This document shows positions 16,350 through 27,924 of a stretch of 64,000 nucleotides of DNA, one piece after another. A program made the position numbers and the translations under genes. The notes below the pieces were generated by a model. The model had not been told where the DNA came from and did not search any database. It saw nothing but the letters and a program-made list of their open reading frames with translations. The stretch spans positions 1 through 64,000 of the forward strand of contig CASDWH010000020.1 in the NCBI GenBank assembly GCA_949284715.1, read 5' to 3'. Position 1 is the stretch's first letter. Every line of letters starts with the position of its first letter. The stretch is from an uncultured bacterium. GTDB lineage: Bacteria; Cyanobacteriota; Vampirovibrionia; Gastranaerophilales; Gastranaerophilaceae.

Positions 16350-17268
16350 TTACCTTAAAAATACATTCCATCCGATTGATGTTCCTGAAAATGTTGAGTT
16401 GGAAGAAAATCAATTAGTAATCGTAAGGACTGAAAAAGGCGAAGAGGTTTTAAAAGTTTTTAGAGTTAATTCCGAAATAGCAAAAAGGTTTGAAGATTCA
16501 GGCAAAAATCTTGAACCGTTTCAATTTATCCGCGTTCTCACTCATGAAGATATGATGATTTATGATGACATAAAACGTGAAGAAGTCACATCGTTTTTTA
16601 AGTGTAAAGAACTTATTCAACAGCATAATCTTACAATGAATCTGGTTCAGTGCAGGCTTACTTTTGATAGAAAAAAGATTACCTTCTATTATACGGCTCC
16701 CGAACGTGTAGACTTTAGGGCATTATTAAAAGATTTAACACAGGTTTTCCGGCATATGCGGATTGATTTAAGACATATAGGGGTAAGGGATGAAACCTCT
16801 ATTATGGAAGGTACCGGTATGTGCGGCAAGCCTTTCTGCTGCTGTTCTTTTTTGCGTAAGTTTGCATCAATAAATGTAAAACTTGCAAAAGATCAAGGCA
16901 TGCCAATTACACCTTCTAAAATTTCCGGAAGCTGCGGACGTTTGTTATGCTGTCTGACTTATGAATATTCTAATTATATTGAAGCAGCTAAAGGTATTCC
17001 TCCTGTTGGTTCTACTGTTATGACTCCGGCCGGTCTTGGTAAAATTTGTTATATTAAATTCCTTAACAGTATTGTTGCTGTTAAGTTTGAAGATGGTAAA
17101 ATAAAAGAATTTACCAAAGATGATATTGAAATGGTTGATGCAGAAGTTAATGTTGATATTAATGCGTCTATTCAAACGATTGCCGCGTATGATGTTGATG
17201 AAAAAGTTGATATGCGTCAATTAAAACAGCTTGAAGATGATAGAAACAGTTCTACCGGTAATGTATAG
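16330..17268 (+). CDS. ricT: PSP1-domain protein, RicT/YaaT-like
   Basis: The 312-residue protein has the PSP1 core with its clustered cysteines: GKPFCCCSFL (about residue 165) and GSCGRLLCCLTYEY (about residue 200). In Bacillus, RicT (YaaT) with RicA and RicF binds Fe-S clusters and FAD and controls RNase Y-dependent RNA processing; related proteins occur in cyanobacteria. No RicA or RicF is adjacent here. AAGGAAGAAG lies inside the end of gpsA, before the ATG. The acidic C-terminal tail is probably flexible. Confidence 0.88.
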   Translation: MIKWAVNYLKNTFHPIDVPENVELEENQLVIVRTEKGEEVLKVFRVNSEIAKRFEDSGKNLEPFQFIRVLTHEDMMIYDDIKREEVTSFFKCKELIQQHNLTMNLVQCRLTFDRKKITFYYTAPERVDFRALLKDLTQVFRHMRIDLRHIGVRDETSIMEGTGMCGKPFCCCSFLRKFASINVKLAKDQGMPITPSKISGSCGRLLCCLTYEYSNYIEAAKGIPPVGSTVMTPAGLGKICYIKFLNSIVAVKFEDGKIKEFTKDDIEMVDAEVNVDINASIQTIAAYDVDEKVDMRQLKQLEDDRNSSTGNV

Positions 17269-17279
17269 GGGGAGATTAA

Positions 17280-17903
17280 ATGGAGCTTTATGAAGCTATA
17301 GAAAAACGAAGAACTGTTAGAGATTTTATTGACAACCCTATAGATATGGAGATTATAACCAGAATTCTTTCTGCCGGTCTAAAAGCGCCGACTAATAATC
17401 ATCTTAGAGAGTGGGAGTTTGTTGTTGTTAATGATAAAAAAGAACGTTTAAAAGTTTTGAATTTAGAGGATATGACAAGCTACGAGGAATGTGAAAAAAT
17501 GCTGGACAGTTTTGGTATGACTGATTCTGACCAGCGCGGCATGTATCATATCGCTATGCCGAAACAGTTCTCAATGTTATATAACTGCGGCTGTTTAATT
17601 TTGCCCTTTTTTAAATTGCGGGAACCGTTGCTGCAGCCTACCTGTCTAAGTTCATTAAACGAGTTTGCATCAATTTGGTGCTGTATAGAAAATATACTTC
17701 TGGCTGCTGTATCTGAAGATATTTTAGGGGTGACGAGAATTCCTATGAGTGAAGAGCTTGAACATATTAAAAAAATAATAGGTTATCCTGATAATTATAC
17801 GATGCCTTGTTATATAGCACTCGGGTATCCGAAAAAAGATGCTAAAATCCCCGTGCAAAAAGTAATTGATGTTAAAAATAAAATACATATTAACAAATGG
17901 TGA
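17280..17903 (+). CDS. Nitroreductase-family flavoprotein
   Basis: The 207-residue protein starts with ELYEAIEKRRTVRDFIDNPID, the FMN-binding opening of nitroreductases, and has APTNNHLREWEFVVV and the C-terminal ALGYPKKD. These enzymes reduce diverse substrates with NAD(P)H; the true one is unknown. An unusual cysteine-rich middle (NCGCLI, CLSSLNEFASIWCCIENIL) is at about residues 100-140. GGGGGAG lies before the ATG. It is the last gene of the ribH-led run and borders the AT-rich island that follows. Confidence 0.85.
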   Translation: MELYEAIEKRRTVRDFIDNPIDMEIITRILSAGLKAPTNNHLREWEFVVVNDKKERLKVLNLEDMTSYEECEKMLDSFGMTDSDQRGMYHIAMPKQFSMLYNCGCLILPFFKLREPLLQPTCLSSLNEFASIWCCIENILLAAVSEDILGVTRIPMSEELEHIKKIIGYPDNYTMPCYIALGYPKKDAKIPVQKVIDVKNKIHINKW

Positions 17904-18033: not shown

Positions 18034-19116
18034 ATGAATAAGAAAGATAAAAAAATAATATTAAAAGAAATCCACAGCGTAAATAATCCAAATTCTATGC
18101 ATGGATTATACCCGTATCGTGGAAAAATATCGGCTATTGATGCGAAAAGTATTATAGAACAACTTCCCCGGGAAGGGACATTATTGGATCCTTTTTGCGG
18201 CTCCGGTACTATTGTATATGAAGCGCTAAATCATGGATTGAATGCTTTTGGTATTGATAATAACCCGTTAGCAATAAGGATTGCTAACGCAAAAATTGAA
18301 TCTGAAAAAACTTATAGTTGTATTTGTGAAAATATTATAAATAAAGCAAGAATAGACCTGAACAATAAAAAATATGAACAAATGAATGAGGCTCCTATAA
18401 GAAGTTTTCATAAAGATACTGCCGCAGAAATAATGTGTATCAAAAATTACTACGATGAAATGGACAGTTATTTAAAAGGTGTGTTTTTGGGTGCAGTAGC
18501 ATTGACCGCAAGAGGCTGTAACGGTTATAAATGGACTTCTAGTACTGTCGGTAAAAATATTGAACCTAAAACTTATATTAATTTCTTTGAAAAATTTATG
18601 TCAAAGGCAGAAAAACATTCTAAATACTTCTTAAAAGATAAATCAAAAAAAGGTTATATTATTAAAGGTGATAGTAGAAAATTATCAACATATATAAAAC
18701 CTAAAAGCATTGACTATGTTTTTACAAGTCCTCCGTATTTTGATGGTCTGGATTATACGGCCTATTATGGTAAGTTGATATACGAAATTTTTGGCATTAA
18801 CCGTGTAGATATAAAACAACAGTTAATCCAGTCTGTTACTAGTTATAAAGATGATATGACGACCGTTCTTAATGAAATAGATAAAGTCACTAAAGAAGAT
18901 TCTTTGATAATTTTTGTAGTCGGAGATAAAAAAATAAAAAATCAAATTATTAACGGCGGAGAATTTTTTAATGAAATAAAACCCTCGTCATATACTGTAG
19001 AAAGACAGTATAGTGGAAGTTCAAGCCAAATATTCGACGTATTAAACAAAACTGCCAGAAAAGAACAGATTGTAGTTTGGGAAAAACATAAAGGAGAAAT
19101 TGTAAAATATGAATAA
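18034..19116 (+). CDS. DNA methyltransferase (N4-cytosine/N6-adenine type), island M1
   Basis: The 360-residue protein carries the AdoMet motif LDPFCGSGT (51-59) near its N-terminus and the catalytic TSPPYFDG (231-238) far downstream, with a likely target recognition region between. TSPPY favours exocyclic amino methylation (N4-cytosine, less often N6-adenine). It overlaps the next methyltransferase by eight bases. A TATAAT at 17966-17971 could be its -10. Together with M2 it may modify the two strands of a non-palindromic site. Base composition is more AT-rich than the genes before it. Confidence 0.92.
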   Translation: MNKKDKKIILKEIHSVNNPNSMHGLYPYRGKISAIDAKSIIEQLPREGTLLDPFCGSGTIVYEALNHGLNAFGIDNNPLAIRIANAKIESEKTYSCICENIINKARIDLNNKKYEQMNEAPIRSFHKDTAAEIMCIKNYYDEMDSYLKGVFLGAVALTARGCNGYKWTSSTVGKNIEPKTYINFFEKFMSKAEKHSKYFLKDKSKKGYIIKGDSRKLSTYIKPKSIDYVFTSPPYFDGLDYTAYYGKLIYEIFGINRVDIKQQLIQSVTSYKDDMTTVLNEIDKVTKEDSLIIFVVGDKKIKNQIINGGEFFNEIKPSSYTVERQYSGSSSQIFDVLNKTARKEQIVVWEKHKGEIVKYE

Positions 19117-19924
19117 TGTACCTTTTTCTAAAATCTATATTGGTGATAGCAGAAATATGAAAGAAGTGGCAGATGAATCTGTAAATTTAATTATTACAAG
19201 TCCGCCTTACGGTGCATTAAAGGATTATCAAAACAATGAACAAATTGGACTCAATCAGTCTTATAATAATTATATAGAGAATTTAAACAGTGTTTGGAAA
19301 GAGTGTATAAGAGTTTTAGCGCCTGATGGCAAGCTGTGTATAAATATTATGCCTCTCTTTGAATCAGGGAAAGCAACCAAATTTAATAGGAGAATTACTC
19401 ACACTGCAATTTCGGATATAGAAAAATTTATGGACAACACCGGAGAAATGTTTACTTTTGCATTATATATCTGGGATAAAAGAAAAATTGTAAGATTTAG
19501 TTCTTTTGGAAGCTATCCATATCCTACAAATATTTTTTCTACATTTCCTTATGAATGGATTATAGTATTTTGCAAGAAAGGGAAAAGAAATAATGTGTCA
19601 AAAGAAATTAAAGAAAAATCGAAATTAACCCATCAAGAATGGGCTGATTGGGCGATTAACTCCTTCTGGGAAATGCAGCCTGCAAAGGCGAAAATCGAAA
19701 AACATCCGGCGCCTTTTCCAAAAGAGTTACCTCATAGATTAATTAAACTTTATAGTTTTTATGGTGATACTGTGCTAGATCCGTTTATGGGAACCGGAAC
19801 GACTGCTGAGGCCGCAATAGAATTAGGAAGAAATACTATTGGATATGAGATAAATAAAGAATATGAGCCTTTGATTAAAATAAAGACAGAAAGGGCTTTT
19901 GAGGAATTTTTAAAAAATAAATAA
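19109..19924 (+). CDS. DNA methyltransferase (beta-type order), island M2
   Basis: The 271-residue protein has the catalytic TSPPYG at residues 30-35 and the AdoMet motif LDPFMGTGTT at about 223-232, the reverse order of M1 and typical of beta-class N4/N6 methyltransferases. The two neighbours are therefore not simple duplicates. The gene ends two bases before the end of the convergent PD-(D/E)XK gene. Its ATG lies inside the end of M1 after a GGAG, so translation is coupled. Confidence 0.93.
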   Translation: MNNVPFSKIYIGDSRNMKEVADESVNLIITSPPYGALKDYQNNEQIGLNQSYNNYIENLNSVWKECIRVLAPDGKLCINIMPLFESGKATKFNRRITHTAISDIEKFMDNTGEMFTFALYIWDKRKIVRFSSFGSYPYPTNIFSTFPYEWIIVFCKKGKRNNVSKEIKEKSKLTHQEWADWAINSFWEMQPAKAKIEKHPAPFPKELPHRLIKLYSFYGDTVLDPFMGTGTTAEAAIELGRNTIGYEINKEYEPLIKIKTERAFEEFLKNK

Positions 19925-19926
19925 TA

Positions 19927-20811
19927 TTATAATTTTTCAATAGTGTATTTATTATTATTTCTAATAATTTTTCCACATGATAACAGACCGATACAATTTT
20001 TATCCTCAAAAACTTTTGATAAAATTTTATCACAAGCGAAATTTTCATTTCCGGATAAGAATTTTGCACATATGCATAGAAGCGCATTGGCACTAATAAA
20101 TTTAATTCCGTTTTTATCTATTTTGGAATAAAATCTTGAGGTCTTATCACCAATTATTCCGGTGCAATGCGGGTATTGAACAGGAAGTAAATCTGATTCT
20201 CTGCCTCCAATCAGTGTTAAATATACATATTTTTTTATTGATTTTTCAATTTCAATTGTATATTTATGATATTGCTCAATAAATCTTTCATCTGCGAGAG
20301 CATCATCTAATGTTGTTTTAGTTTCTATTGCAATAAGATAGTCGTTGCACATAACACCAATATCTAATCTTCCATTTCTATCATAATCAAGATTGAAAAT
20401 AGGTATTTCCATGCCCGCTCTATTTGGACAGGAACAAGTATTGTTTATAATTCCGGCAACCCAAGGCTGGATATTAGTAGTTTCATCCACTGACGTAAAT
20501 TTTTCAAAAGAACTATATGGGTGCTTCAAGCCGGATATTGTTTTGGGTGAATCTATAATTTCGCCGCAAAAAGAGTTATTGTTGATGTTTGATATAAAAT
20601 CTGCTCCCCTATAGCAGGCAAATAAATCTTGTAATTCTTTGTTGTTAACTATGCAAAACAAACATGCAAAACAATTATTATTAAACATTTGTTTTTTTAT
20701 ATCTAATCCGCAGCATTTATGCAGTATTGTAAATTGTTCGTTTCTTATTGATTTTGGAATATTATTAACAAAATCGTCGATATTCTTATATTTTTTATAG
20801 TTGTATATCAT
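19927..20811 (-). CDS. Putative PD-(D/E)XK restriction endonuclease with Cys cluster
   Basis: I do not recognise the family of this 294-residue protein, but the sequence shows a nuclease core: GRLD at 148-150 with D150, then AIETK at 161-165 (E163-x-K165), preceded by LDYDRNG and by E135. This is the D-x(12)-ExK spacing of PD-(D/E)XK enzymes. The N-terminal third has C33, C34, C47-x2-C50-x2-C53 and C66, a pattern able to bind a metal or Fe-S cluster, and C126-x-C128 lies just before the nuclease core. It is the last gene of a three-gene minus-strand run and faces the two methyltransferases, so it is the likely cutting subunit. It overlaps the 401-residue gene by four bases. Confidence 0.75.
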   Translation of the reverse strand: MIYNYKKYKNIDDFVNNIPKSIRNEQFTILHKCCGLDIKKQMFNNNCFACLFCIVNNKELQDLFACYRGADFISNINNNSFCGEIIDSPKTISGLKHPYSSFEKFTSVDETTNIQPWVAGIINNTCSCPNRAGMEIPIFNLDYDRNGRLDIGVMCNDYLIAIETKTTLDDALADERFIEQYHKYTIEIEKSIKKYVYLTLIGGRESDLLPVQYPHCTGIIGDKTSRFYSKIDKNGIKFISANALLCICAKFLSGNENFACDKILSKVFEDKNCIGLLSCGKIIRNNNKYTIEKL

Positions 20812-22013
20812 TTTCTTTCTAGTTCCTTTGCAATTTCATTTGCAATATATACAATTTCATCGGGAGCATCTTCTTTCAGAACATTTTCATCAATAATAGT
20901 TAATGCTGATAATAGTCCATTATCTTCCTTGAAGGGCAATCCTACTATATCAGATATTTCCGATTCTGATACCATAATATCATATGGAGAATTGCCGCTT
21001 GAGAAAAATAGATGTTCATATTTGCACATTTCATCAATAAGTTTTTCAAAATTTAAGGCTTTATTAATTTTACTAAAATAATTTAATACATAAACAAAAA
21101 CAAATCGTCTATTTAATATATTTTGATTATAAGCCATTGTTGCTTTTCGCAATATTTCACCGCCGTTTTCTCTCAAGGCTTTAACATCTTTGTGCAGACG
21201 TACATAAGATAACGGGTTGCTTACAAAGTTTTTATTTTTAAATACATTATTACACAATTGAGTTTTTCTGAATTTCCTTATGGTTAATTCTCCTGAATTT
21301 ATAAACTCACGATAATGTAAATGAGCAAGTTCTTCGGTGTTGTTAATATTCTTTAAAACCGGTTGTAATAAACCAACCGTTACACACCAACCTATAATTC
21401 TTGACATTGTTCTTGTGTTGCTGTCCCGCTGGCTGTCAGTTGAGAGGTCAACATATTTTTTATTTCCGAGTTCATCGGTGTATTCGACTGTTTCTTTAGT
21501 TTGCGGATATCCTAAATAAATTCCGGAATAGGAAAATATATCCGTATACTCTTTTATTTTGCTTAAAAAACCAATAACTACACCATATGATAAAACCCCT
21601 TGCAATGAAATTTCTTCCCATTTCGAGGATAAAAAATCAGTATTTACCCATTCTTCACCTTGTTTTGTTATCTTGTATTTATTTTTTGTGAATTTCTTTG
21701 TAAAACCTAAGGCCTCAAATGAGCCTCCAACATCGCTTACTGCTTTTGATTTCGTTGAGTCGCTGTAAATAGACTGCGTTGCATAACATTTAGAATCATT
21801 TAAAGGATTAACTAAAAAGGGACAACATTTTATTCCTACACAATCTTGCAGCAATTGGCAATAATTATGAACGTTATATTTATCATCTTCATCATATTTT
21901 AAGTCTTTTAGTGCAAATTCTTTTTCTGTTCCAAATTTTGCATAGCATGACTTTAAAATGTAATATAAACATTCCAGGCGGCTTCCGTATTTTCGATTTA
22001 ACAATAGTGACAT
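20808..22013 (-). CDS. Unknown protein of the island, possible DNA-recognition subunit
   Basis: The 401-residue protein has no motif I can name. It is mixed alpha/beta with several helix-turn-helix-like stretches, for example KSKAVSDVGGSFEALGFTKK followed by KNKYKITKQGEEWV at about residues 90-125, which looks like a winged helix with its wing. A cysteine group lies at residues 52-76 (C52, C58, C63, C64, C76). Its place between two nuclease-like genes and the methyltransferases suggests specificity or restriction-complex assembly. It overlaps the following gene (ATGA) and begins three bases after the preceding one. Confidence 0.6.
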   Translation of the reverse strand: MSLLLNRKYGSRLECLYYILKSCYAKFGTEKEFALKDLKYDEDDKYNVHNYCQLLQDCVGIKCCPFLVNPLNDSKCYATQSIYSDSTKSKAVSDVGGSFEALGFTKKFTKNKYKITKQGEEWVNTDFLSSKWEEISLQGVLSYGVVIGFLSKIKEYTDIFSYSGIYLGYPQTKETVEYTDELGNKKYVDLSTDSQRDSNTRTMSRIIGWCVTVGLLQPVLKNINNTEELAHLHYREFINSGELTIRKFRKTQLCNNVFKNKNFVSNPLSYVRLHKDVKALRENGGEILRKATMAYNQNILNRRFVFVYVLNYFSKINKALNFEKLIDEMCKYEHLFFSSGNSPYDIMVSESEISDIVGLPFKEDNGLLSALTIIDENVLKEDAPDEIVYIANEIAKELERK

Positions 22014-22016
22014 ACC

Positions 22017-22634
22017 TTATTCTCCGAATGTGTTTATTAAATTTGTTATTGTAATAACATTTAAATTGTTTTTATTAGCTGTAGAAAGCACGCTTTGTTT
22101 TACAAGCATAAATGCATGAAAACGATAATCATTAAAAGTTTTGTTATAAGTTTCAATTTGTTCGTTATAAGAGTCCATATAAAACCGATATTTATTTAAG
22201 TCAGATAAAACTTTTATTAAACAAACGGTTTTATCTTTTTGAATTACAAGATCAATCCTTCTTTGTCTATAGTTGCCAAAAGATTTAATTTGAGAGCCAA
22301 TTTTACAATCTTTTCGCATTTCGGAGAAGTAAATATTTAATGAATCAAGATTTGACAATAATATATTTTCTAGTTTTTCATTAAGCAAGTTTTCATTAGG
22401 TGTTTTTGAGCAGGCTAACTGGCATAAAATACATTCGTCGCAATTATCTTTAATATTTAAATGATTATTTTTTATTTCTTGAGCGTTATTGTGACAGACC
22501 AAAACATCGACTTTTTTATGTTCTTCTGCGAGCAAAAAAGAATTCATATCAATTGAAGATATTATCTTGTATATTGCACATGTCAGTTGAGATTTATTAT
22601 CACATCCAACACAGAAATCTTTATTCAAAAGCAT
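22017..22634 (-). CDS. Unknown protein with ferredoxin-like Cys motif and nuclease-like core
   Basis: The 205-residue protein opens with C8-x2-C11 and has C65-x2-C68-x2-C71-x3-C75, the pattern of a [4Fe-4S] ferredoxin-type site. The second half holds RRIDLVI (D128) followed by VCLIKV (K141), which matches the strand pattern of a PD-(D/E)XK core but lacks the middle acidic residue (Leu139 in its place), so it is either catalytically dead or only similar. First gene of the minus-strand operon: AAAGGA lies before the ATG and a TATAAT at 22664-22659. Fe-S plus nuclease fold recalls AddB/Cas4-type nucleases; that is analogy only. Confidence 0.6.
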   Translation of the reverse strand: MLLNKDFCVGCDNKSQLTCAIYKIISSIDMNSFLLAEEHKKVDVLVCHNNAQEIKNNHLNIKDNCDECILCQLACSKTPNENLLNEKLENILLSNLDSLNIYFSEMRKDCKIGSQIKSFGNYRQRRIDLVIQKDKTVCLIKVLSDLNKYRFYMDSYNEQIETYNKTFNDYRFHAFMLVKQSVLSTANKNNLNVITITNLINTFGE

Positions 22635-22777
22635 ATTCCTTTCAAGAGTTATAATGGAATTATATCATGAAGAATTTCTTGAAAAAAATTGTTGGAATAT
22701 AGTAAAATTGATGACTATGCCTTTAAGAAGAAATAAAATATAAAATTAATTTATGTTTATTTATTATTAGCAAATAC

Positions 22778-23181
22778 TGGAGATGGCGGGAGTCGAACCC
22801 GCGTCCAAAATGAGTGAACGCAAACGTCTACGGATATAGTCCTGTATTATCTTAATCTAGGACGGAACAGAACAAAACCTTTCCTAAATCAAAGCCTTAT
22901 CACAGTCAGGCGGACTTTTTGCGGTTAAACTTGACGTACCTACCGCTATCAATACGCTGCGGCTTGCATGGTGGTCCCATAACTCCGGCAAGCTGGAAGC
23001 TATGAGAGGCTTACCTAAATTCTATTAGGCAGCAGCTCTTTCGCTTACGCGAGAGAAAGCTGCGCTAGCATCAACTACATAAGGTGTAGCATTTAAATTG
23101 GTTGCTCGTTGTTAACCGGGAACAGCTCCCGAACCCGCAATCTGTTTCCACTAATCACCCTGTCAAATCCAAAGCATCCCC
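22778..23181 (-). ncRNA. ssrA: Transfer-messenger RNA (tmRNA)
   Basis: Both tRNA-like ends are present on one strand in normal order, so this is a one-piece tmRNA of 404 bases. The 5' end GGGGATG pairs with CATCTCC at the 3' end (one G-T pair); the conserved GGATTTGACAGGGTGATTAG follows the 5' stem and the T-arm GCGGGTTCGACTCCCGC precedes the 3' stem. The discriminator A is at 22778 and CCA is not encoded. The tag reading frame is at 23028-23090 with stop TAA-TAG in a hairpin. tmRNA rescues stalled ribosomes with SmpB, whose gene is at 61158. Confidence 0.97.
23025..23090 (-). other. tmRNA tag-peptide reading frame
   Basis: On the minus strand the frame reads ATPYVVDASA then AFSRVSERAAA and stops at TAA (23025-23027), directly followed by TAG. 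The end RAAA is a good degradation signal. If resumption is at the first GCT (23090-23088) the tag is 21 residues, longer than the usual 10-16; a later Ala codon (GCT at about 23069) would give 14. The tag codons and stop lie in a strong hairpin (GCAGCTTT.../...AAAGAGCTGC), as is normal for tmRNA helix 5. Confidence 0.75.
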
Positions 23182-23904: not shown

Positions 23905-26874
23905 TTAGTTGTGGTATTTCATTAATAGTTTTGCAATAATATCAAGGAATGATTTTTGATAAAAATCACTCTTAGCAATACATGTTTCTGCACCAAGGTC
24001 TAATACTTTTTTAGATGTTTCTTTATCTACCATACTGCTGACGATTACTACAGGTATATCTGCATACATTTCGTCATTTTTTAAACGTGTAAGGAATTCT
24101 ATACCGTCCATTTTAGGCATAGAAATATCACTGACTATTAAATCGTAATGGTTTAATTTAAGTTTATTAAATGCATCAAACGGGTCATCTGCTTCATCTG
24201 TAATATACCCTGCGGCCTTTAAGATATTTTTTTCCATAGTTCTTGTTGTCAAGGAATCGTCAACAACCAGAATTCGTTTAAATGACAGTATATCTGCCGT
24301 TAAAACTTTCGGTGAAGCTTGTATGTCTGCCTGTGCTGCTGTAATATTTTTTACCATTTCCTGAATATTTAAGATTAAACATAGCTCTCCGGAAGCAAGG
24401 TTTGTAATACCGGAAATATTTTTTACTTTGTATAACGGCGGTGCCAGTTTCTTTTGCAAAATATCCTGGTCGCCAAATAAAGCGTCTACAATTAAACCTA
24501 TTTGTTTTTGTTCAGATTCGATTACAAGAATAATTTCTTTTTCTCTGCGTTCGGTTGATTTTAAGTTTAATACATCAGAAAGATAATATACAGACAGAAT
24601 TTCGCCGTTGTGCTGTATAGAAAGATTTCCGTTGTTAGAAGCGATATCTTCAGTTTTCTTTAGTATGAATGTAGATATAACCTGTATAGGGATTGCAAAT
24701 GTCTGATTTGATACCCTTACAAGGAAAACTCTAAGTGTAGTCATTGTTACGGGAATTTCAATATGTACGCAGCTCCCTTTTCCGAATTCCGAAATTATTT
24801 TTACTTTGCCGTTTAATTGTGAAATCTTTGTTTTGACAACATCCAGACCAATCCCCCTGCCTGAAATACTGTTTATGGAATCTCCTGTTGTAAATCCGGG
24901 CCAGAATATTATATTCATTATTTCGTCATCAGTCATTGAATCAATCTCTTCTTGAGTTAAAAATCCATGGCTTAAAGCTCTTTCTTTTATTTTGTTGAGA
25001 TTGAACCCTTGACCGTCATCTATAACATCAAGTATAACTTTGTTATCATCCTGGCGCGCACACAACATAATTTTACCCATAGGATTTTTCCCTTTTGCAC
25101 GCCGGTCTTCAGGATGCTCAATTCCATGGTCAATTGCGTTTCGCAAAATATGAATTAGCGGGGTTTTTATTTCTTCAACAATTTTTTTATCAGCGCTTGT
25201 ATCGTTGTCTTCTATAACAAATTCTATTTGTTTATTTTTTTCATTTGCGATATCCCTGACCATTCTTGAAAAAGAATGCAAGACTGTTGATATTGGTAAT
25301 ACACGTATATTCTTAACCATTGACTCCATTTCATCAATGATTAGGCGCATTTTCATGTCATCCTCTTTGGTAACTCTTGATAGTGAAGTAAGGTCATAAA
25401 TAGTTCTTGATAAGTTTTGTGAAACTTCTGAGAGCAGCATAAAAATCTGTTTTACGAAAGTAATTGAGAATTGGTCAACCGTATTAACCTGTAAATATTT
25501 TCTATGATAGTATTTGAGGTGGTTAATTGCTTTGAGCAGGTCTTTTTGCCACAATTCGCTTGCCGAACGAATGGTATCAATTTTATCAAGATGTTTTTCT
25601 GTTTTTATTTTCGTAATAATTAATTCTCCGAGTTGATTAATCAGCATATCAAGCTTTGCGGAGTTGACGTGTATATTTTTAATTTCGTTATTGTTGTTGG
25701 AGGTGTTGTTAGATGATTGGGTTTTGACCGAGATTCCTTTGGTTTCAATAATACCTATATCTTTTTTGTAATCCAGTTCAAGAAGCTGTTTGGTAATTTC
25801 CAGCTGCTGGAGTATTAATTCTACATCGACATTGTCGCCTGATGTTGCGCAGCTTTCAATACTGCTTTTTAGTGTCATAACCATTTGTTCTTCAAGCGTA
25901 ATATCATTGTCTTTTATAAAGTTAAGTATCTCAATTACTATAGAAATTATTTCTGTAACTGTCTGGTCTGTATTGATAGCTTTTATCTGATTTAATTCAT
26001 CTATAATTTCTGAAATATAAATGTTGTTATTTTGGAGAGAATATATTTTTTCTGCTATTTCAGGAAATGATACAGCGTTTTGGCTGTCCATACAAAAAGA
26101 GGTGTATTTTGAAGTCGCAATTCCCAGATTATTTCTTATTTCTAATATTTCACTTATTGTAAGTTCGCATGAGCTGCTTTGGACAAACTCCAATTTTACT
26201 TTTACACTTTCAAGCGGGGCTTTTACTTCATAGAATTCTTTACCCTGGAAACAGTTATATAATTCATCTATTATTAAGAATAAATCCCGAATTTCGTCAG
26301 ATACAACTTCCGGAACTATTGTGTCGAGAATTTCAAAAGCTTTAGAAAAGAGGGAATTAATATGGTCTTGTACGGATTCGGGCATGGCAATACCGAACGA
26401 AGAACTTCCTGTGTCTATGATATCAATATTTTCATCAGAGGGTTTTTCTCCGTTTAGTTCAAAATGTAAAAGCTGGGAGTCGCTTATTTTTTGTAGTTTT
26501 TCAGTTTCTGTATTATAGCGGACATCTATATATTCTTTTTTGCGGGTAATAGATTGTTTTATGTATTCCGCAATAAGGTCAATAGTACTGCTCAAATCCA
26601 TAACAAGATTTGTTGATAAAGTTATGAGGTTATCTCTTATGCCGCTTATTATATCTTCAATAAGGTGTAAAAGGTTCTGGATATTTTCAAAACCTATCAT
26701 CCTAACAGCACCTTTGAGTCCGTGAACATCTCTGAAAATATCCATTAACAAGTCTTTGTCATCTAGATTATTTTCAAGCTTGGAGAATTTTTCGTATAGG
26801 GACTGTATTAATTCATCGGTTTCTGTTTGAAATACTTCAAATAATTCTTTTAGCTCTTTCTCTGAATAGTCCAA
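23905..26874 (-). CDS. cheA: CheA-type histidine kinase with C-terminal receiver (CheA-REC)
   Basis: The 989-residue protein has, in order: Hpt with phosphohistidine H51 (DVHGLKGAVRM), a long helical region, the dimerisation segment (about 395-500), the HATPase with N-box HILRNAIDHGIEHPEDR and GRGIGLDVVK, a CheW-like domain (about 695-830), and a receiver from residue 866 with D916 (VSDISMPKMDG). Fused receivers of this kind are frequent in cyanobacterial and type IV pilus chemotaxis kinases. Start is TTG after GAGGAA inside the end of the MCP gene. The fused receiver may act as phosphate sink or output, as no separate CheY is adjacent. Confidence 0.95.
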   Translation of the reverse strand: MDYSEKELKELFEVFQTETDELIQSLYEKFSKLENNLDDKDLLMDIFRDVHGLKGAVRMIGFENIQNLLHLIEDIISGIRDNLITLSTNLVMDLSSTIDLIAEYIKQSITRKKEYIDVRYNTETEKLQKISDSQLLHFELNGEKPSDENIDIIDTGSSSFGIAMPESVQDHINSLFSKAFEILDTIVPEVVSDEIRDLFLIIDELYNCFQGKEFYEVKAPLESVKVKLEFVQSSSCELTISEILEIRNNLGIATSKYTSFCMDSQNAVSFPEIAEKIYSLQNNNIYISEIIDELNQIKAINTDQTVTEIISIVIEILNFIKDNDITLEEQMVMTLKSSIESCATSGDNVDVELILQQLEITKQLLELDYKKDIGIIETKGISVKTQSSNNTSNNNNEIKNIHVNSAKLDMLINQLGELIITKIKTEKHLDKIDTIRSASELWQKDLLKAINHLKYYHRKYLQVNTVDQFSITFVKQIFMLLSEVSQNLSRTIYDLTSLSRVTKEDDMKMRLIIDEMESMVKNIRVLPISTVLHSFSRMVRDIANEKNKQIEFVIEDNDTSADKKIVEEIKTPLIHILRNAIDHGIEHPEDRRAKGKNPMGKIMLCARQDDNKVILDVIDDGQGFNLNKIKERALSHGFLTQEEIDSMTDDEIMNIIFWPGFTTGDSINSISGRGIGLDVVKTKISQLNGKVKIISEFGKGSCVHIEIPVTMTTLRVFLVRVSNQTFAIPIQVISTFILKKTEDIASNNGNLSIQHNGEILSVYYLSDVLNLKSTERREKEIILVIESEQKQIGLIVDALFGDQDILQKKLAPPLYKVKNISGITNLASGELCLILNIQEMVKNITAAQADIQASPKVLTADILSFKRILVVDDSLTTRTMEKNILKAAGYITDEADDPFDAFNKLKLNHYDLIVSDISMPKMDGIEFLTRLKNDEMYADIPVVIVSSMVDKETSKKVLDLGAETCIAKSDFYQKSFLDIIAKLLMKYHN

Positions 26875-26877
26875 AGC

Positions 26878-27924
26878 TTATTCCTCTGTTGCAGAATTTT
26901 TAATATCTGTGGAGATATTGTTAATTTCTGCTAATTTACTGGTGCTTATTTCAAGTGTTTTTGTAAGACTGGAGGAACTGTTTCTTGCTTCATCAATAGA
27001 TTGTGCAAGTTTATTGAGCAGCTCATCCTGTTTTCTTGAGTTTGTGTTAATTATTTCAAAAGAAGATTGAATCTCGCTTACTAGATGAACAAGTTTTTCT
27101 GAATTAGAACTTATTGAATTTATTTCTTTCAGAACTGCTTCTATTTCTTTAGAGCCTTCTTCTGTAGCCATAACGGTTGAATTAGTTGCATATTGGATAT
27201 TGCTGGTAAGCGAGGTTATTTTAGTAATAGCTTGTTTGGATTCATCTGCCAGTTTTCGTATTTCACCGGCGACAACTGCAAAACCTTTCCCGTGTTCCCC
27301 TGCTCTTGCCGCTTCTACTGCGGCATTGAGAGCCAGCATATTGGTTTGTTCTGCGATGTCTTCTACAACACCTATGGTGCTGCCTATTTGCTGTGTATGT
27401 TCAGACAATTCCAGAACCAGTTCTGCAATCATCTGGATTTTTTGTCTTAGAACAACCATTTTTTCTATATTTGCATTTATAAAGTCATATTCCTTTTGAG
27501 ATACATTTAAGGATTGGCTGGTATTTTTTTCAGCAGCCTGGGAGGTTGATGAAATTTGTTCCAGGTATGTTTTCATTTTTTCAATAGTACCTGCTCCGTT
27601 AAGTAAATCATTAAGACAGGTGCTGATGGTATTACGTTCGTTTTCAAGATTGTTCAGCACGTCAGACATTACGTTAGACATTGCACCTGCCTGTTTCCCC
27701 AGGCTTTTATTTATTTTTGCGGCGAACCATTTGATAGCAAAAATTTCAGCAATTACGAAGAAAATAATGCACATCAGTATACATACTAATACGTCATAGC
27801 CTTCTACATTATGCTTAACCATAAATCCGCTAAACAGCAGACATATAGCTGCAAATACCGCCAAATCAATTATAAATTTGCCGGCGAGTCTTTTTTCTAA
27901 AACTGAATTTAATGATATTCTCAC
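26878..27924 (-). CDS. Methyl-accepting chemotaxis-like receptor, no sensor domain
   Basis: The 348-residue protein has two membrane helices (about 18-36 and 44-64) with only a few residues between them, so there is no periplasmic ligand domain. The cytoplasmic part carries the MCP hairpin tip [39 protein letters not shown]. It can thus signal through CheA but probably senses the membrane or the cytoplasm. The start is GTG preceded by a G-rich stretch (GGGGGGCG). It is transcribed with cheA, three bases upstream of it. No CheR or CheB gene is nearby. Confidence 0.93.

Follow-up and report, generated by a model that had tools for sequence, protein, structure and literature searches.

A candidate five-gene restriction-modification system with putative FokI-like recognition and ferredoxin-type cleavage subunits on separate chains

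The window analyzed here, a stretch of 64,000 nucleotides from an uncultured bacterium of the family Gastranaerophilaceae (contig CASDWH010000020.1), contains an island of five genes, which encode two DNA methyltransferases (MTases), M1 and M2, and three further proteins, A, B, and C. With good confidence, based on sequence comparisons and structure models, these genes are read as a mobile restriction-modification (R-M) system of Type IIS/IIT character, in which recognition and cleavage would be placed on separate subunits and the cleavage subunits would carry iron-sulfur (Fe-S) domains. A, B, and C may together form a three-subunit restriction enzyme.

Recurrence and co-inheritance of the five genes

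M1, M2, A, B, and C were found all together in seven distinct loci, namely the window, L038 (=L206), L238, L120, L207, L041, and L121. A search for the same five genes in other genomes, the check proposed in a first-pass annotation of this DNA, therefore returned six other loci from distant lineages. Besides the window, the lineages with the system include several genomes of the class Clostridia (among them L120, a metagenome-assembled genome from rabbit gut), a Nealsonbacteria genome (L121), and a viral contig (L041). L206 is the cellular copy of the viral contig L038, and the proteins listed for the two are identical. The gene order in L038 is the same as in the window, to which its proteins are 83% (M2), 65% (M1), 63% (B), 56% (A), and 33% (C) identical; L041 has M2-A-B-C and, on the opposite strand, M1, and L121 has M1-M2-C-B-A with all genes on one strand. 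L038 was found by a scan with M2, L041, L120, and L121 by queries that joined conserved stretches of M1, M2, and B, and L204/L206, L205/L207, and L237/L238 by searches with a B profile. Nothing was found by tblastn of plasmids and phages, nor by single-protein scans of viral contigs (A, B, C, M1) and genome contigs (A), in which the query peptides probably lay in variable stretches.

B was accompanied by M1 and M2 in all seven loci that hold it. The gene is rare: with the genome used as the center of each search included, it was counted in 1 of 382 genomes of the window's class, a number that rests on a single B sequence and not on a profile, so that distant copies may be missed, in 3 of 391 genomes of the class of L120, in 2 of 195 genomes of one family, and in 1 of 287 genomes of the phylum of L121. 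Across six loci the pairwise identities of the proteins co-vary (rho 0.88-0.96 among M1, M2, A, and B, with 0.91 for M1/M2, 0.96 for M1/B, 0.96 for M2/A, and 0.91 for A/B), the correlation of C being weaker (rho 0.52-0.61), and such concordant divergence is as would be expected under co-inheritance. In L038 and L238, which form a close pair, each of the five genes shows purifying selection, with ratios of non-synonymous to synonymous substitution rates (dN/dS) of 0.11 for M1, 0.13 for M2, 0.10 for A, 0.15 for B, and 0.25 for C. Because the set recurs in seven loci and is under purifying selection, it is no chance grouping. The convergent orientation and the variable insertion hotspot at which the island lies would fit an orphan MTase pair that happens to stand beside an unrelated three-gene operon, but the probability of such an accident is negligible, and it is already refuted by the occurrence of the five-gene set in seven loci with differing orders and concordant identities.

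In the window, the five intact genes lie between a nitroreductase-like gene (17280-17903) and the transfer-messenger RNA (tmRNA) gene detected by ARAGORN (22778-23181, minus strand). The first-pass annotation described two MTases opposing three minus-strand genes, and all five open reading frames are present at that position. M2 and A are convergent, tail to tail, and 2 bases apart. The overlaps of four or eight bases that had been noted exist between M1 and M2 (8 bases) and between A and B (4 bases), but B and C do not overlap and are separated by a 3-base gap. The AT-richness is real, the G+C content being 30.0% in the island versus 37.0% in the remaining window. The description of all three minus-strand products as cysteine-rich holds for A (5.4% cysteine) and C (4.9%), whereas the enrichment is only mild in B (2.5% versus 1.7% in genes nearby). 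No family that could name A, B, or C was obtained from Pfam, NCBIfam, PADLOC, PHROGs, or the sequences of the PDB, and the comparison with known R-M types that had been called for accordingly gave no sequence match in these libraries.

Recognition and cleavage subunits

B (401 aa; 20808-22013, minus strand) is, by fold and profile alignment, a predicted stand-alone relative of the DNA-recognition domain of FokI. An AlphaFold2 model of B, built from five homologues, reached a predicted local distance difference test score (pLDDT) of 75.8 and a predicted template modeling score (pTM) of 0.79. In a Foldseek comparison of this model with the PDB, the top three matches were FokI chains (E 3e-6 to 1.7e-5, probability 1.00), and apart from FokI there was no match below E 0.3. 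A profile of six B proteins was aligned with one built from the recognition domain of FokI (sequence verified against PDB 2fok) and four plasmid-borne FokI homologues; the score was 49.5 with a probability of 84, and the maximum in 30 column shuffles was 23.3. The alignment places B 101-217 on FokI 116-241 and pairs the invariant D197 and R201 of B with D224 and R228 of FokI. In the FokI-DNA structure, R228 and its neighbors are contacts to the target bases. The B chain stops where the recognition part of FokI stops and contains no cleavage domain or nuclease motif, and the FokI Pfam domain was detected neither in B nor in A. When the B profile was compared with PDB sequences, no match was better than E 0.14, and these matches were regarded as noise. 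Four cysteines of B (C15, C52, C64, and C76) are invariant in all seven proteins, which suggests a metal site, with zinc or Fe-S possible, and their spacing is unlike that of any ferredoxin.

A (294 aa; 19927-20811, minus strand) is likely a PD-(D/E)XK nuclease behind a ferredoxin-type [4Fe-4S] domain, the cluster itself being predicted, as judged by invariant residues and by Pfam matches of homologues. The N-terminal four-cysteine domain (C33, C47-x2-C50-x2-C53) is followed by the nuclease domain; C47, C50, and C53 are invariant in the seven A proteins, and the fourth cysteine, which none of them lacks, is displaced by 1-3 alignment columns in three. The nuclease part has E110, W117, E135, R145, R148, D150, E163-x-K165, and Q180-x3-Y184 invariant in all seven, a set that reads as the PD-(D/E)XK signature together with the QxxxY motif of RecB/Cas4-like nucleases. 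The D150-x12-ExK core pointed out at first pass is located here, as D150-x12-E163-x-K165, and A is the sole protein with a complete predicted nuclease site. One A homologue has an HSDR_N match (E 0.0017). In the AlphaFold2 model of A, the core elements follow the expected order helix-strand-strand-strand-helix-strand, and the best PDB matches include the nickase BspD6I and McrC, all of them weak (E 0.022 and worse). The same model also matched metallo-beta-lactamases, but these matches stem from regions of low confidence and were set aside as noise.

The nature of the cysteine sites is indicated by homologues; for A, two homologues have Fer4-type Pfam matches. The N-terminus of A in L041 has the pattern CP...CxxCxxCxxxCP and matches Fer4_21 at 4e-6, under the curated cut-off of that model; C of the same locus lies above the Fer4 cut-off (24.0 versus 21.1 bits) and is the sole Fer4 match over threshold, and solved ferredoxins rank among the best PDB sequence matches of both proteins. 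The CxxCxxC motif with a distal cysteine was found in seven of seven A proteins and six of seven C proteins. The earlier guess of an Fe-S requirement is thus upheld by comparison, as homologues of A and C appear to have 4Fe-4S ferredoxin domains and the cysteine quartet is kept in the window. An unlikely alternative is that the sites hold zinc in place of [4Fe-4S] and that the subunits are zinc-stabilized nucleases: four-cysteine sites accept either metal, the spacing in B is not that of a ferredoxin, and C of L121 has no site at all, yet A and C of L041 match solved ferredoxins as well as Pfam models of 4Fe-4S domains, and the cysteines of the window align to the L041 ferredoxin pattern.

C (22017-22634, minus strand) is a paralogue of A that seems dead as a nuclease. 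The relationship was shown by profiles alone, with a probability of 96.9 and E 1.9e-10 and with the signal mainly from the ferredoxin half, and BLASTP found no similarity between A and C; the nuclease halves alone scored 22.9 against a maximum of 15.7 in 60 shuffles. The degenerate core of C consists of R123, R126, D128, and L139-x-K141, in which the glutamate of the ExK motif is replaced by leucine in all seven C proteins and R123, R126, and K141 are invariant. The ferredoxin-type cysteine cluster is present in six of them. The loss of the glutamate together with purifying selection suggests that C serves A as a structural or regulatory partner.

It could be argued that C is also active and that A and C form a Type IIT-like heterodimer, each cutting one strand, with a relocated acid in C. 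C is under purifying selection and never missing, its Lys141 and basic R-x2-R are kept in all seven proteins and its Asp128 in all but L041 (Glu there), Type IIT enzymes come with two MTases and some with a non-specific small subunit (PMC4081073), and the small subunit of BspD6I/BstNBI cuts one strand. Nevertheless, this arrangement is rather unlikely, as the ExK glutamate is leucine throughout, the alignment contains no conserved substitute acid, and C of L041 keeps its ferredoxin part while its nuclease core drifts. Small XRE-type regulators were observed directly upstream of C and on the same strand in L120 (12632-12868) and L038 (4746-4955), and none in the window; the one in L120 resembles the controller (C) proteins of R-M systems.

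Methyltransferases and genomic setting

M1 (360 aa; 18034-19116, plus strand) and M2 (271 aa; 19109-19924, plus strand) are both DNA N6-adenine/N4-cytosine (N6A/N4C) MTases matching Pfam N6_N4_Mtase, at 8.9e-15 and 1.4e-46, respectively. The reversed motif order that had been read from the translations agrees with the motif positions: DPFCGSGT (residues 52-59) precedes TSPPY (231-235) in M1, and TSPPY (30-34) precedes DPFMGTGTT (224-232) in M2, the latter being the beta-class arrangement. M1 orthologues are present in the six other complete loci, with 50-66% identity in the five measured, and M2 orthologues are 61-83% identical. The closest relative of M2 in the plasmid collection is the first MTase of a Helicobacter suis plasmid R-M system (41-43% identity). 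Distant relatives of M1 and M2, the neighborhoods of which were viewed on a Macrococcoides MvaI/BcnI plasmid, on Helicobacter plasmids, on a Pseudanabaena HNH plasmid, and in genomes of the window's own class, adjoin other genes and no A, B, or C; therefore, the system cannot be defined by MTase similarity alone.

Close relatives of M1 and M2 (48% and 63% identical) also lie adjacent to each other on a phage contig (L042, 4800-6676), beside a large terminase gene and without A, B, and C, and this pair likely serves phage self-protection against the five-gene system. From such cases one might suppose that the restriction genes are inactive or otherwise employed and that the locus is mainly a maintenance MTase pair, for instance an anti-restriction device of the carrier element; M1 alone in L122 and the one full-system copy within a prophage would be in keeping with this. 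We regard it as very unlikely, since A, B, and C are intact in seven of seven loci with their catalytic and cysteine positions conserved and dN/dS of 0.10-0.25, and B is never seen without the MTases. The orphan M1 of L122 (7938-9050) is in a Eubacteriales genome, near integrase/recombinase-like genes, and no B was found in that genome.

The mobility of the R-M system is indicated by its surroundings. In L206 the five genes adjoin phage genes for a sigma-like regulator, an exonuclease, a single-strand-binding protein, and a DNA polymerase, and this copy lies inside a prophage; L207 has the neighboring phage family phrog_4031 in common with it. When the window is compared with sister genomes of its genus, homology on the left ends at 17268, the end of a PSP1 gene, and on the right begins at 22748-22778, the 3' end of the tmRNA gene. 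Both island flanks are conserved in these genomes, but there they are on separate contigs. Since synteny stops at the tmRNA 3' end (22778), the island abuts a variable junction. At the tmRNA gene of one sister genome lies another island, which includes a serine recombinase (L218, 8397-17804). From these homology breakpoints and the other island at tmRNA, the best reading of the window copy is that it was acquired and sits at a tmRNA hotspot.

Genes of the L218 island, named by eye, are ImmA-like, dGTPase-like, large helicase/primase-like, and serine recombinase genes. The nitroreductase-like gene to the left of the window's island is itself variable, with a clear sister-genome copy only in G278, at another place and with 74% DNA identity. 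On the other side, at 23905-27924, a CheA-like histidine kinase with a C-terminal receiver domain was recognized by eye beside a methyl-accepting-type protein.

Class, mechanism, and significance

The gene content is that of Type II systems, as M1 and M2 are linked to the PD-(D/E)XK protein A in all seven loci and no motor subunit was found; Pfam detected no ATPase or helicase domain in the five proteins, and the flanking genes differ among loci. Recognition and cleavage modules are distinct, as in Type IIS enzymes, with the FokI-like B and the nuclease A on separate chains, and two MTases are present, the target of which may be asymmetric. The two catalytic sites of Type IIT enzymes are not found, because C, in contrast to A with its PD-(D/E)XK site, is without the ExK glutamate in all seven loci, and the cleavage domain is not on the chain of B as it is in FokI enzymes, although the FokI fold for recognition is. 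Because it has the Type II gene content and FokI-type recognition and falls outside the definitions of Type IIT and of FokI enzymes, the system is filed, on sequence grounds, as a putative variant of Type II not described before.

According to the proposed mechanism, B would bind an asymmetric target in the manner of the FokI recognition domain, and its two strands would be methylated by M1 and M2, one strand by each enzyme. Where this methylation is missing, B would recruit the A/C pair, and A would cut at or near the site. C would be a structural or regulatory partner, so that the cutting of both strands would require two A subunits, unless A nicks. By analogy with Cas4 and AddB, the clusters are probably structural staples. 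A bolder idea keeps recognition in B, catalysis in A, and a dead paralogue in C, and makes the [4Fe-4S] domains a redox or oxygen switch that would turn the nuclease on or off according to conditions in the host, which is probably anaerobic, or in the cell under infection; both the switch and its control by the cell are speculative and improbable.

Several observations weigh against the proposed R-M system. The sequence match between B and FokI is partial (107 columns), and the two superpose loosely, with a root-mean-square deviation of about 13 Å over the multidomain chain. The confidence of the A model is low (pLDDT 58), and the PDB matches of this model are weak, with E 0.022 at best. In A and C of the window themselves no ferredoxin signal is recognized, as it is in divergent homologues only, and C of L121 is without the ferredoxin part and the cysteine cluster. 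Between the nuclease halves of A and C, the alignment covers 18 columns only, though it scores above all 60 shuffles, and two free-standing MTases could persist without active restriction.

Among known enzymes, the closest comparisons are Type IIS and Type IIT. Type IIS enzymes usually have two MTases, with recognition and cleavage in distinct domains, and Type IIT enzymes share the work among subunits (PMC4081073). The window system is like FokI (Type IIS) in the recognition fold of B, in two methylation activities for a site that would be asymmetric, and in predicted PD-(D/E)XK cleavage. It is unlike FokI in that reader and nuclease are separate chains, the nuclease has a ferredoxin domain and a degenerate paralogue, and the MTases, one fused protein in FokI, are two separate SPPY proteins. 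With the Type IIT systems BspD6I/BstNBI, BtsI, and BsrDI it has in common more than one restriction subunit, two separate MTases, and asymmetric targets (expected here), and the best structural match of A, a weak one, is the BspD6I nickase; however, the large Type IIT subunit both recognizes DNA and cuts one strand, whereas B has no nuclease domain, and here there are three restriction proteins, two with ferredoxin-type domains.

Cas4 and AddB, of the RecB/Cas4 group, are like A in being PD-(D/E)XK nucleases with a QxxxY motif and a four-cysteine cluster. Their cluster ligands are split around the nuclease fold. A differs from them in its N-terminal ferredoxin-type domain and its place within an R-M operon. 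Stand-alone FokI-like winged-helix proteins are present as DndG in Dnd, SspB in Ssp, and BrxA in BREX (PMC10853773, PMC12839542), and like B they represent a FokI-type DNA-binding module as a protein of its own in a defense operon. Those systems have ATPases together with phosphorothioation or BREX genes, unlike the two MTases and ferredoxin-nucleases found here; DndA-E, SspA-D, and BrxC/PglZ are absent among the five genes, and none was noticed in the open reading frames around the other loci. In the Helicobacter suis plasmid R-M system (L033, 5031-7831), two MTases likewise converge on the restriction gene, but the latter encodes one HNH-like protein, in which no similarity to A, B, or C could be detected. 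The first-pass statement that no described system of this composition was known to its author agrees with the open-access literature, in which none was found (subscription papers, preprints, and REBASE entries lay outside this coverage).

Three protein families, A, B, and C, which the general libraries searched do not describe, have been identified. If the proposed reading is true, no other Type II restriction system among those found in this analysis or in the literature searched has Fe-S domains on its nuclease subunits, and this one would be the first. It would also be a "split FokI" of natural origin, with one protein to read the DNA and another to cut it, and as such would be directly useful for the engineering of programmable or conditional nucleases. 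It also raises the testable question of whether a restriction enzyme may need, or sense through, a [4Fe-4S] cluster.

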